Of a DNA stretch of 5,819 nucleotides, positions 1,800 to 5,819 are shown one piece after another. Each line of letters starts with the position of its first letter. The stretch's first letter is position 1. The stretch comes from Deltaproteobacteria bacterium (GTDB lineage Bacteria > JAUYMQ01), in the NCBI GenBank assembly GCA_030698575.1, contig JAUYMQ010000551.1:1-5819 (forward strand), given 5' to 3'. The position numbers and the translations under genes are program-made. The notes under the pieces were generated by a model. The model saw only the letters and a program-made list of their open reading frames with translations, did not search any database and was not told the origin of the DNA.

Positions 1800-3212
1800 A
1801 TGGTCGAAAAAATAAGAATCCTGGTGATCGACGACGATGAGAGCACGCGTGACTATCTGCGGGCGCTGATCACGAAGAACGGCTGGCGGGTCTTCACTGC
1901 TGAGTCGGGCGAGCAGGCTCTCATGGAGATGGAAAAGGTCAATCCGACCCTGGTCACCCTCGACCTGGTTCTTCCGGGCATCGACGGCATCGAGACGCTC
2001 CGGCTGATCAAGGAGAAGGATCAGGACGTGCCGGTCATCATGTTATCGGGACACGGTCAGGCGAAGACGATAGTCCAGGCCATGAAGCTCGGCGCGACGG
2101 ATTTCTTGCGCAAGCCCTTCGAGAGCGACGAGCTCAAGATCGCCATCAACAAGGCCCTCGAAAAGAAGAAGCTCGTTTCGGAGGTAGAGTTCTTACGCGT
2201 AAAGGTCCAGGAGCAGTCGAACAGCACCTTCCTGTTCGGGACGAGCACCCGAATGAAGGAAGTCGAGGAGATCGTCGAGCAAGTTGCGGACACCGACATA
2301 ACCGTCCTGATTCGCGGCGAGAGCGGAACGGGCAAGGAACTGGTCGCGCGTATGCTGGCCGCGAAATCGGATCGTAGCTCGAAGCCGTTCGTCAAGGTGA
2401 ACTGCGCGGCGCTCCCCTCGGAGCTGCTCGAGAGCGAGCTGTTCGGGTTCGAGAAGGGCGCCTTCACGGGCGCCCAGAAGCGGAAGCTCGGAAAGTTCGA
2501 ATACGCCGACGGCGGGACGATCTTCCTCGACGAGATCAGCGAGATGCACCCGAATCTCCAGGCCAAGCTGCTACAAGTCTTGCAGGACGGAGAGTTCTCC
2601 CGGCTCGGAGGCGAGGCTGACGTCAACGTTGACACGCGGGTGCTTGCGGCGACGAACCGTAATCTGGAGGAGGCGGTCAAGGAGGGGAGCTTCCGGGAAG
2701 ATCTCTTCTACCGGCTGAACGTTGTGAACATCCCGATTCCGGCGCTCCGGGAACGGCGCGCGGACATCCCGTTGTTCATCGACTACTTCCTCACGAAGTA
2801 CAACGAGCAGTATCACAAGGACGTGCCCTTCTTATCCACGGGGACGATGGACACCTTCATGAAGTATGCCTGGCCGGGGAACGTGCGTGAGCTGGAGAAC
2901 ATGATCAAGCGGATTGTCGTCCTCGGGAGCGAGAAGGCAGTGCTCCAGGAATTCCAGGTCCGGGAAGATCACCCGGCGACGCAGAAGCAGTTCGAGCACG
3001 AGGGGATCGATTCAATCACCGAAAGCGATCCGGGCCGCTATGGCTTGAAGGAGATCGGGAAGCGGGCGAGCCAGCTTGCCGAGAAGCGGGTGATCGCGCG
3101 GGTGCTGCAACAGACGCGCTGGAACAGAAAGGAAACGGCCGAGATTCTGCAGATCAGTTATAAGGCGCTTCTCTACAAGATGAAGGAGAGCGGGCTGTCA
3201 GAGATGTCCTGA
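1800..3212 (+). CDS. NtrC-family sigma-54-dependent response regulator 2
   Basis: A 470-residue cytoplasmic activator collinear with regulator 1. Receiver (about 4-121): D11/D12, phospho-acceptor D55 in LDLVLPG, S83, F102 at the switch position and K105 in RKPF. AAA+ domain (about 146-378): Walker A GESGTGKE (173-180), GAFTGA (220-225), Walker B FLDEISEM with D244/E245, sensor I TN (285-286), FREDLFYRL, and GNVRELEN (360-367). Fis-type helix-turn-helix (about 429-465) contains [18 protein letters not shown]. The ATG at 1800 is supported by AGAGG six bases upstream and by the receiver fold beginning at once ([12 protein letters not shown]). It has its own sigma-54 promoter, so it is probably activated by itself, by regulator 1, or by another enhancer-binding protein. 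The export-locus genes follow after 126 bases with no convincing terminator. Its kinase is not in the window. Family and competence are secure; regulon is inferred. Confidence 0.95.
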
Positions 3213-3338: not shown

Positions 3339-3878
3339 ATGAACGACACGAATCCACACGCAGGCGCCGGCGATCCGGTATGGGTGAGCATGCTGGATGA
3401 GGAAACGCAGGTCCTGAAAGATCGCGTCTTCGACTATCTCTTCGACCTGGAAGTGAAGAAGGCCACTCGATATCAGTATTTTCTCGCGGTGCTCTTCCTC
3501 GAGCTGGATCACGGCGCCGGGGGGAGACCCGTGGAGGAGCAGGAGAAGGCTCGCCAGAGGCAGCTCAAGGTGCTGGCCGACTTGCTGCGGGACGAGCTTC
3601 GCTCCACCGACATCATCGGCCGCTTCGCCGACGGCCGGTTCTCGGTCCTCCTTCACCACGCCGACGAGGTGAACACCCAGCGGATCGGGGAGCGCATCAG
3701 AAGGCGAATTCATGACTATGTTTTCAGCCAGGAGAATCCGGGTCACCGCACGGTGAGCATCGGCGGAGCGTGTTTTCCGGGCAGCGGTAACTACGCGGAC
3801 GATCTCAGGGGCGCCGCCTTGAAGATGATGGAAAGGGCGAAGATCGACGGGGGGAACAAGGTCTGCACAACGAGCTGA
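3339..3878 (+). CDS. Stand-alone degenerate GGDEF-domain protein, putative cyclic-di-GMP receptor
   Basis: A 179-residue soluble protein that is essentially one divergent GGDEF domain. The N-terminal half (about 28-57) resembles the start of the fold (FDYLFDLEVKKATRY, then FLAVLFLELD) but lacks the usual D-x-LTGL-x-NR signature. The active-site motif GGDEF is replaced by ADGRF (97-101), so diguanylate cyclase activity is not expected. R88-S-T-D91 sits exactly five residues before it, the spacing of the RxxD inhibitory site in PleD-type cyclases. The second GGDEF hallmark TVSIGGACFP (138-147) and the C-terminal AKIDGGNKV (167-175, compare AKxxGRNxV) are recognisable. Established precedents for degenerate GGDEF domains binding cyclic-di-GMP through the I-site include PelD and PopA; function here is inferred. 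The ATG at 3339 was chosen, but its purine-rich stretch (3319-3326) is rather distant; a GTG at 3297 in frame would add 14 residues. It is separated from the export lipoprotein gene by 39 bases, so they are probably cotranscribed. Confidence 0.8.
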   Translation: MNDTNPHAGAGDPVWVSMLDEETQVLKDRVFDYLFDLEVKKATRYQYFLAVLFLELDHGAGGRPVEEQEKARQRQLKVLADLLRDELRSTDIIGRFADGRFSVLLHHADEVNTQRIGERIRRRIHDYVFSQENPGHRTVSIGGACFPGSGNYADDLRGAALKMMERAKIDGGNKVCTTS

Positions 3879-3917: not shown

Positions 3918-4517
3918 ATGAAAAGCGTTTTGGTCCGGAGCGCGATTGCGGCGCTTTGGTTTCTGACGGCCGGTTGCGAACATTTCCGCGGGGAAGATGC
4001 AATCCCGCCGTCGGTGATGGCCGTGGCCGATGAGTATCGCGTGGGTCCGTCGGACGTGCTGAGCGTCTCGGTCTGGAAGCAGCCGGATCTGACCCTGGGT
4101 CTGACGCCTATCCGCCCGGATGGAAAGATCTCGCTGCCGCTGCTCGGTGACATCGACGTGGAAGGGCTTACGGCCCTCGAGATCAACGAGGTCATCACCG
4201 AGCGGCTGAAGGAATTCGTGAGTGATCCGGAGGTTACGGTTGCCGTAGTGCAGGTGAACTACCCGGTGGTGTTCCTGATCGGCGAGATCAACCGGCCCGG
4301 CCCGATTCCGATCCGGCAGAACACGACGATGCTGCAAGTGATCTCGATGGCGGGCGGGTTCACCCCGTTCGCGGACAAGGACGACGTTCACATTATTCGC
4401 CGCGAGGGGGACATGGAATACCGGATCCGCTTCGACTATGACGAAGCGCTGAAAGGGAAGGCGACCAAGCCGACGCTCTACGTGAAGCCCGGGGACGTCA
4501 TCGTGGTGGAGGACTAG
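3918..4517 (+). CDS. Wza-family polysaccharide export lipoprotein
   Basis: A 199-residue periplasmic/outer-membrane lipoprotein of the polysaccharide biosynthesis/export (Poly_export, SLBB) family, which forms the outer-membrane end of capsule and exopolysaccharide export. It starts with a lipoprotein signal peptide: K2/R7, a hydrophobic stretch (8-18) and the lipobox LTAGC with lipidated C20. The Poly_export domain (about 37-113) has YRVGPSDVLSVSVW (40-53), PIRPDGKISLPLLG (64-77) and DPEVTVAV (103-110). One SLBB domain follows (about 116-165), with GEINRPG (122-128) and LQVISMAGGFTPFA (139-152). It ends with the typical KPGDVIVVED. Compared with E. coli Wza (about 380 residues) it is short: it has one SLBB and lacks the long C-terminal part with the membrane-spanning helix. 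The pore may therefore need a partner, and the beta-barrel protein encoded 55 bases downstream is the obvious candidate. Short forms like this are common in exopolysaccharide loci outside the enteric bacteria. Confidence 0.92.
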   Translation: MKSVLVRSAIAALWFLTAGCEHFRGEDAIPPSVMAVADEYRVGPSDVLSVSVWKQPDLTLGLTPIRPDGKISLPLLGDIDVEGLTALEINEVITERLKEFVSDPEVTVAVVQVNYPVVFLIGEINRPGPIPIRQNTTMLQVISMAGGFTPFADKDDVHIIRREGDMEYRIRFDYDEALKGKATKPTLYVKPGDVIVVED

Positions 4518-4572: not shown

Positions 4573-5819
4573 ATGAGGCGGGCTCTGGCCAGCTTCGGGA
4601 GCATGCTCGCCGGCTTCGCCTGCGCCGGCCTGCTGTTGTTGGTCGGCCCGGTCGATGCGGCGGCCTTCGATCGCATGGTCGTGACTTACGGGCTTCGGGA
4701 GTACGCCGAGTACGACGACAACCTTTTCTTCGCCGTGGAGGGAGAGCCAAAGATCTCCGATGTGGCGATCAATACGGCGCCGGATCTCTCATTCCTTTAC
4801 GACGACGGCAAGACGAGGCTGCTGGGTCGCGCGAGCTACAGACGCGAGAGCTTCATCGACAACAGGGAGGGGAGCGGAAACTACTATTCGTTCAGCGGAG
4901 AGTTCTCGAGGTTGCTGACCGACCAGGTCTCCTTCTCCCTGCTGGGCGGCTACACGAACTACGCCTCGCTCCAGCAGGGCCAGGTGTTGCAGGAGCCGGG
5001 CCAGCGCAACGTGATACGGCCGATCCGGGGCGCGGTGACGGAGGGGACCGTTTTCTCGCCCTCGCTCTCCGTCTTCTGGTCGCGCCGGTTCGGAACGAGC
5101 CTGACCTACGAGGATAACCAGAGTTTTACCGAAGGAGGGCTTGGCCAAATAGGGCGGTCCATCGCGCTGAACGGTTTCTACGGGCTGTCCCGGCGCACGA
5201 CGCTGAGGGGCTTCCTTGTGGCCCAGTCGAACCGGAATTCGCGCCTGCCGCTGGTTGAGAGATCGGACACCGATTCCTTCGCGGCGCGTTTCGGGTTCCA
5301 GCACACGTTCTCCCCGAGGCTGACGGCGGAACTCTCGGCGGGTCCGCAATGGACAAAGGACGTCAACACGCCGCGGAACGTGACCGTGCTTTACAACGGG
5401 ATTACCGAGGTGGTCGTGGATCCGGTCCTGGGGCTCACCGCGCCGGCGTACGTGAGCGAACCAGGGAAGAAGGTGGAGGATACGTCGCTGGGGCTATCCT
5501 TCAGTCTGCAGATGTCCTACCAGCTCGACAAGCGGACCAACCTCGCGCTTTTCGCCGCGCAGGGAACCACGAGCGGCCAGGGCGCAGCGGGGACGCAACT
5601 GACCCAGGAGTTGCAGCTGACCGCCTCGCGGCACTTCGGATCGAAATGGAATCTTTCGGTTCGCGGCGCGTGGCAGAAGCAGTCGAGTGTGACAAAGGAC
5701 GTGTCGATTCTCTTTTTCCCGGTAAACATCGGAGGAATAGTCGTTCAGTCGCCGGACCCGATCACGGGAGAGTTCGCGGCGCTCGACCGCAGGAGTTTCG
5801 ACATCAACGCGCGCCTCGA
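4573..5819 (+). CDS. Outer-membrane beta-barrel protein of an exopolysaccharide locus (partial, 3' end missing)
   Basis: The frame is open from the ATG to the window edge (415 codons seen). It starts with a Sec signal peptide: R2/R3, a hydrophobic core (11-25) and a probable cut after VDA (27-29) or AAA (29-31). The mature part has no helical membrane segment. It consists of alternating polar/hydrophobic strands rich in Tyr, Phe and Ser, separated by turns rich in Gly, Asn and Asp, for example SFSLLGGYTNYAS, GTSLTYEDNQSFT, TLRGFLVAQSN, LSFSLQMSYQLD and NLSVRGAWQKQS. The first strand has the motif EYAEYDDNLFF (43-53), which resembles the start of BBP2-type and PEP-CTERM/EpsL-associated barrel proteins of polysaccharide loci. 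Its position directly after the Wza-like gene supports a role at the outer membrane in polysaccharide export. A GTG at 4552 is in frame, but GGAGG (4557-4561) before the ATG and the clean signal peptide favour 4573. Barrel nature is fairly sure; the exact family and role are inferred. Confidence 0.8.
   Translation, partial: MRRALASFGSMLAGFACAGLLLLVGPVDAAAFDRMVVTYGLREYAEYDDNLFFAVEGEPKISDVAINTAPDLSFLYDDGKTRLLGRASYRRESFIDNREGSGNYYSFSGEFSRLLTDQVSFSLLGGYTNYASLQQGQVLQEPGQRNVIRPIRGAVTEGTVFSPSLSVFWSRRFGTSLTYEDNQSFTEGGLGQIGRSIALNGFYGLSRRTTLRGFLVAQSNRNSRLPLVERSDTDSFAARFGFQHTFSPRLTAELSAGPQWTKDVNTPRNVTVLYNGITEVVVDPVLGLTAPAYVSEPGKKVEDTSLGLSFSLQMSYQLDKRTNLALFAAQGTTSGQGAAGTQLTQELQLTASRHFGSKWNLSVRGAWQKQSSVTKDVSILFFPVNIGGIVVQSPDPITGEFAALDRRSFDINARL

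Follow-up and report, generated by a model that had tools for sequence, protein, structure and literature searches.

A stand-alone degenerate GGDEF protein as a probable I-site receptor for cyclic-di-GMP in an exopolysaccharide locus of an uncultured bacterium

Introduction

Degenerate GGDEF proteins that act as I-site receptors for cyclic-di-GMP (c-di-GMP) have been described in exopolysaccharide (EPS) operons; two of them, PssE and YdaK, bind the nucleotide at about 1 µM (PMC4125290, PMC5422440). PssE (Lmo0531) of Listeria monocytogenes, which takes up two c-di-GMP molecules per monomer with a Kd of 0.79 µM, carries DKDDA in place of the GGDEF motif and an RxxD motif five residues upstream, and its gene is part of an EPS operon (PMC4125290). 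YdaK of Bacillus subtilis, also encoded in an EPS operon, has the degenerate motif SDERI and needs its RxxD motif for EPS output, which is abolished by R202A and D205A (PMC5422440). PelD of Pseudomonas aeruginosa, another degenerate GGDEF protein of an EPS operon, requires R367, D370, and R402 for c-di-GMP binding (PMC2170427). BcsE of enterobacteria is a soluble protein with a degenerate GGDEF domain and a working RxxD I-site that regulates polysaccharide secretion (PMC7439463). In Myxococcus xanthus, the gene for the NtrC-type activator EpsI/Nla24 is part of an EPS locus, and the activator receives c-di-GMP input by binding the nucleotide itself, at 0.53 µM (PMC4877007).

In the present study, we analysed a window of 5,819 nucleotides from a Deltaproteobacteria bacterium, which is one whole contig (JAUYMQ010000551.1) of a 653-contig, 4.13 Mb assembly (GCA_030698575.1) and encodes a stand-alone degenerate GGDEF protein, P0001. 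The features named above are those in which the known systems resemble P0001, and the residue triad of PelD matches that of P0001. By analogy, P0001 would belong in kind with PelD, PssE, YdaK, and BcsE, and would differ from them as a bare soluble domain in the company of sigma-54 regulators, in Wza-type loci of uncultured phyla. PssE has transmembrane segments and belongs to the Gram-positive pss operon, whereas P0001 appears soluble and stands alone, with a Wza-type exporter and sigma-54 activators encoded next to it. YdaK is a membrane protein that needs its transmembrane helices and has no sigma-54 partner, and PelD has four transmembrane helices and serves the synthase-dependent Pel system, both unlike P0001. 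BcsE is a multidomain protein of the cellulose system with a severely reduced fold, whereas P0001 consists of one domain with the full fold. In contrast to EpsI/Nla24, P0001 is a separate protein encoded beside the activator.

Results

Organization of the locus

All features of the window were encoded on the plus strand. The first gene (81–1487) encoded an NtrC-type response regulator recognised by Pfam and NCBIfam. A predicted sigma-54 promoter, TGGCACGCCCCTTGCT, was found at 1704–1719 with 0 mismatches to the consensus, 80 nt 5' of a second NtrC-type response regulator gene (1800–3212). According to Pfam, the second regulator comprises a receiver, a sigma-54 AAA+ domain, and a Fis HTH, and its NCBIfam matches were PEP_resp_reg/NtrC/AtoC-like, under the equivalog cut-offs. 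This gene lies directly upstream of the P0001 gene (3339–3878), whose 179-aa product is the proposed I-site c-di-GMP receptor. The gene for a Wza-type polysaccharide export lipoprotein (3918–4517; Poly_export, E 1.7e-25, and SLBB) begins 39 nt 3' of the P0001 gene, so that P0001 is encoded in an EPS locus. The Wza-type protein scored 138.4 bits against the XrtA/PEP-CTERM export family TIGR03027, under its equivalog cut-off of 180, and was not assigned to that family; an exosortase is encoded elsewhere in the same genome. The last ORF (4573–5819) runs off the contig end, and only its start is seen. Its product matched no Pfam or NCBIfam family and is probably a secreted, outer-membrane beta-barrel-like protein, as predicted from its position downstream of Wza and by analogy with a related locus, L073. 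No sugar transferase gene was visible in the window before the contig end, and the partner of P0001 on its far side is Wza.

Predicted fold and residues of P0001

P0001 matched the Pfam GGDEF family (PF00990) with an E-value of 4.6e-15 and 56.2 bits, against a cut-off of 23.8, and matched TIGR00254 at 9e-17. An AlphaFold2 model, for which the input was P0001 and 53 other sequences, reached a pLDDT of 90.4 and a pTM of 0.84. The best structural matches of the model were GGDEF domains with Z-scores of 20–23.6, several of them solved with c-di-GMP, including 6d9m (23.6), 3ign (23.1), and GcbC (5euh, 22.8); against c-di-GMP-bound PleD (2wb4_B), Z was 22.9 and the rmsd 5.4. As modelled, P0001 is a complete GGDEF fold with its RxxD motif at the I-site position, which agrees with the first-pass annotation of this DNA.

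In the translation and the profile alignment, the primary I-site motif RxxD of P0001 was RSTD (R88–D91, 3600–3611), followed by the five residues IIGRF (3612–3626) and by ADGRF (residues 97–101, 3627–3641), which replaces the GGDEF active-site motif. The letters and coordinates that the annotation had given for RSTD, the gap, and ADGRF were exact. R88, D91, and R119 (codon 3693–3695), the third I-site arginine, aligned with PleD 359, 362, and 390, and ADGRF aligned with GGEEF at 368–372. The RxxD motif of P0001 was thus in the register of R359xxD362, at the offset that had been claimed, and the second-site arginine that had been proposed as a check was present and invariant in the family. The PleD letters and residue numbers behind this register were checked for self-consistency, which held at 16/16 positions. 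The exact five-residue spacing was rejected as significant in itself, since it follows from the GGDEF fold.

The active site was lost at each position compared. PleD D327, N335, and D344 were replaced by E, R, and Q in P0001, and the equivalents of G369 and E371 were also gone. The residues expected of an active diguanylate cyclase, namely GG(D/E)EF, the metal Asp, and the guanine-binding Asn/Asp, were missing from P0001. With the residues for metal and guanine and the GGDEF motif lost from its sequence, P0001 should be unable to make c-di-GMP. The protein falls into the degenerate-GGDEF I-site class, with RxxD in the I-site register and no working active site. The maximum 19-residue hydropathy window was only 0.74, indicating that P0001 has no membrane segment. 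The PelD family is recognised by transmembrane helices at the N-terminus and by a GAF domain, both preceding the GGDEF domain, and PelD itself carries a GAF domain. P0001 showed neither; its 179 aa hold one GGDEF domain only, as the annotation had described.

RxxD was found in the I-site register in 69/71 canonical GGDEF domains related to P0001 and in 60/66 from viral contigs; both samples were rich in domains that resemble P0001 or a cyclase with an I-site, and these rates are therefore biased upward. Since RxxD is the default of the GGDEF fold, its presence in a single sequence is weak evidence, and the first-pass annotation, correct that the motif is there, gave it too much weight. Its retention may be partly ancestral or structural, because RxxD is near-universal in P0001-like cyclases. 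The R390 equivalent was present in 36/66 domains of the viral-contig canonical set versus 34/34 of the degenerate family.

The family of stand-alone degenerate GGDEF proteins

Direct scans of genome contigs and viral contigs returned no close relatives of P0001. The family was reached through the 10 kb around 40 Wza homologues, which led to L073, a 164-residue stand-alone degenerate GGDEF protein in a locus of the same kind, and then by searches with L073. These searches yielded 26 stand-alone short ORFs in 20/95 genomes of one class, which were Candidatus Rokuibacteriota MAGs, and further members were picked up by profile searches in G347, G356, and G376 and, as two copies, in G086, which belongs to another class. 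In total, more than 30 stand-alone relatives of about 150–250 aa were found, mostly in Candidatus Rokuibacteriota, plus one other uncultured lineage. The GGDEF proteins adjoining Wza in L098 and L107 proved to be ordinary cyclases with several domains and were left out, and L190 and L198 were removed from the degenerate set for their near-canonical motifs. In a FastTree phylogeny, the degenerate family stood apart from 39 canonical GGDEF domains with moderate support (0.74–0.88), and P0001 was placed beside G086 (support 0.88). Part of the family scored under, or missed, the Pfam GGDEF model. A Rokubacteria relative of the type under the Pfam threshold was also modelled as a GGDEF domain (pLDDT 85.8), with a Z-score of 19.0 to the DgcB GGDEF domain with c-di-GMP. 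Literature searches on Rokubacteria with diguanylate cyclase, and on sugar transferases with GGDEF, found nothing relevant.

Three observations concern individual copies. In the Rokubacteria EPS locus L146, two divergent degenerate GGDEF genes are adjacent (8903–9382, minus strand, and 9610–10197, plus strand). For L236 (9968–10411) and L237 (1236–1679), a copy on a contig labelled Acidobacteria had the same start and scores as a Rokuibacteriota MAG, which may reflect a binning error. In the family member at L119 (1450–1875, G350:C246), an in-frame TGA lies close to the end, which may mark a decayed copy or a sequencing error.

To describe the conservation of the family, we compared the positions equivalent to those of PleD. 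The R359 equivalent (R88) was kept in 32/33 members (97%), the D362 equivalent (D91) in 33/33 (100%), and the R390 equivalent (R119) in 34/34. The complete triad was found in 32/33 members, with Q in place of the I-site R in L117; as the members are related, these are not 32 independent events. GG(D/E)EF was intact in 0/33 members, the metal Asp D327 was present in 2/29, and the catalytic positions D327, N335, D344, G369, and E371 were unconserved across the family. When 149 columns were ranked by weighted entropy, D91 came 3rd, R119 4th, and R88 9th, whereas the GGDEF positions ranked 49–132, as unconstrained positions, and the metal position 143rd. The probability that three specified residues would all rank among the first nine columns by chance is approximately 1.6e-4 (84/540,274 combinations). 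A42, R44, and G142 were also conserved, though they are not I-site ligands. These comparisons showed orthologues with the I-site conserved, third arginine included, and the GGDEF motif scrambled, the pattern for which the first-pass annotation had proposed to look. Two of the three outcomes that it had named as refutations, RxxD away from the I-site surface in the structure (here, the model) and orthologues with random residues at both motifs, were looked for and did not appear. Judged from the alignment, this family-wide pattern, with the triad kept and GGDEF lost, is strong evidence that the I-site of P0001 is more than a chance feature. In seven pairs, dN was 0.06–0.27 and dS 0.6–1.2, giving a dN/dS far below 1, and the family members are therefore maintained proteins.

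Genomic neighbourhoods and a sister type

The commonest neighbour of the degenerate genes was an NtrC-family activator or receiver gene, found within 1.5 kb of 25/32 of them. At least two EPS genes were present on the retrieved stretch for 7/32, many of these stretches being short. Near the copies in L140, L141, and L145, both NtrC and EPS genes were absent, and some other copies were on short contigs. Typical clusters contained NtrC, Wza, Wzc, an XrtA-type ATPase, a tyrosine kinase, and a NusG-like gene. The two gene orders in G086 were NtrC followed by the degenerate GGDEF gene, and NtrC, degenerate GGDEF gene, and sugar transferase (L194). L078 repeated the layout of the window, NtrC / sigma-54 site / NtrC / Wza, with its sigma-54 site at 11784 on the minus strand. 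Over 489 kb of such loci, 9 sigma-54 sites were observed versus about 1 expected. Another layout, common in Rokubacteria loci, is represented by L152 (6298–6777, minus strand, and 6789–7946, plus strand). In loci of this type, a stand-alone receiver gene is convergent to the degenerate GGDEF gene and is followed by a sigma-54 activator without a receiver, an arrangement that amounts to a two-component regulator split in two, next to which the GGDEF protein is encoded.

A related degenerate GGDEF domain formed the N-terminus of an initiating sugar transferase in L078 (3515–4858, minus strand), L079 (14593–15843, plus strand), L335, L336, and L337; in the first two, the N-terminal part was unrecognised by Pfam. 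In L327 (8854–9312, plus strand) and L328 (6104–6556, plus strand), a separate degenerate GGDEF gene lies directly upstream of the transferase gene, and the two come after Wza, Wzc, and the tyrosine kinase. The sugar-transferase subfamily kept RxTD and lost both GGDEF and the R390 equivalent. Most Rokubacteria copies had no sugar transferase nearby.

Discussion

From its residues and modelled fold, the conservation, selection, and gene neighbourhoods of its family, and the analogy with known receptors, we consider it likely that in P0001 a catalytically dead GGDEF domain has been retained as a minimal, soluble receptor that binds c-di-GMP at the I-site, with control of the EPS locus as its most likely output. 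Besides P0001, the genome has genes for 14 GGDEF proteins, and all 10 that were examined were canonical; c-di-GMP is therefore probably made in the cell. An intercalated c-di-GMP dimer would bind the I-site of P0001 at R88, D91, and R119, as in PleD, PelD, and PssE, and binding may change the partner or the dimer state of P0001. The output would be control of the surrounding locus, at the expression or the initiation of EPS. We favour a route in which c-di-GMP, by way of the adjacent NtrC-type activator, gates EPS transcription that depends on sigma-54, because the NtrC gene is the most constant neighbour and a c-di-GMP-controlled NtrC-type EPS activator is known in Myxococcus. The first-pass annotation had proposed a receptor that tunes the adjoining polysaccharide machinery. 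Its receptor half is well supported by the predicted fold and the conservation of the I-site; for the output half the evidence is indirect, as EPS genes lie near several copies and the NtrC gene is more constant. A coupling of P0001 to the export machinery is plausible.

The same receptor might instead exert post-translational control of assembly, most likely on a WcaJ-type initiating sugar transferase or the Wza/Wzc complex, which we regard as the leading alternative for the output, though a rather doubtful one. PelD, PssE, and YdaK have been described as acting at the synthesis step, and the relatives fused to a sugar transferase at five loci, or encoded directly upstream of it at L327 and L328, argue for such a route in at least a related group, as does the gene order of L194 for G086. 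However, the fused subfamily, which has no third arginine, may have been recruited separately, and a transferase is absent near most Rokubacteria copies and from the window, where Wza is on the far side.

A different account holds that R88, D91, and R119 persist because folding or a protein interface needs them, that no nucleotide is bound, and that P0001 serves purely as a scaffold on which the NtrC activator relies. The presence of RxxD in about 91–97% of the related canonical domains sampled fits this account, as does the conservation of A42, R44, and G142, but solved GGDEF structures with mutated I-sites (4urq, 6zxb) retain the fold, which thus does not need the I-site residues, and the R390 equivalent is far less constant in the viral canonical set than in the family; we therefore think it unlikely. 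Far less probable is that P0001 works as an unusual yet active cyclase or senses some other nucleotide, such as GTP, cGAMP, or ppGpp. Some non-GGDEF signatures, for example AGDEF, are active (PMC3974145), and PleD has been solved with c-di-GMP together with (p)ppGpp (9g85/9g86), but P0001 lacks all five catalytic residues, and its family does not conserve these positions. Least credible of all is a decaying pseudogene or an artefact ORF. Loss of the active site, Rokubacteria relatives unrecognised by Pfam, and the in-frame TGA of L119 in one genome would suit decay, whereas the ORFs are intact in about 20 genomes, the fold is predicted with high confidence, and some residues are invariant; for the family, the purifying selection seen in dN/dS refutes it.

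Returning to the receptor reading, we propose tentatively, as a possibility that falls somewhat short of an even chance, that P0001 represents an undescribed and widespread family of minimal receptors coupling c-di-GMP to sigma-54 (NtrC-type) control of Wzx/Wzy-like EPS loci in uncultured bacteria, by a separate small protein beside the activator and not by a c-di-GMP-binding activator. The members that score under, or are missed by, the Pfam GGDEF model would be annotated as hypothetical proteins. The proposal raises two testable questions, namely whether c-di-GMP reaches sigma-54 activators via a separate small adaptor, and whether in its fused form the domain gates the sugar transfer with which polysaccharide synthesis begins. 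If the proposal is true, uncultured phyla such as Rokubacteria would gain a concrete c-di-GMP effector, and the I-site of a cyclase would survive alone as a whole sensor, without a membrane anchor or a partner domain.
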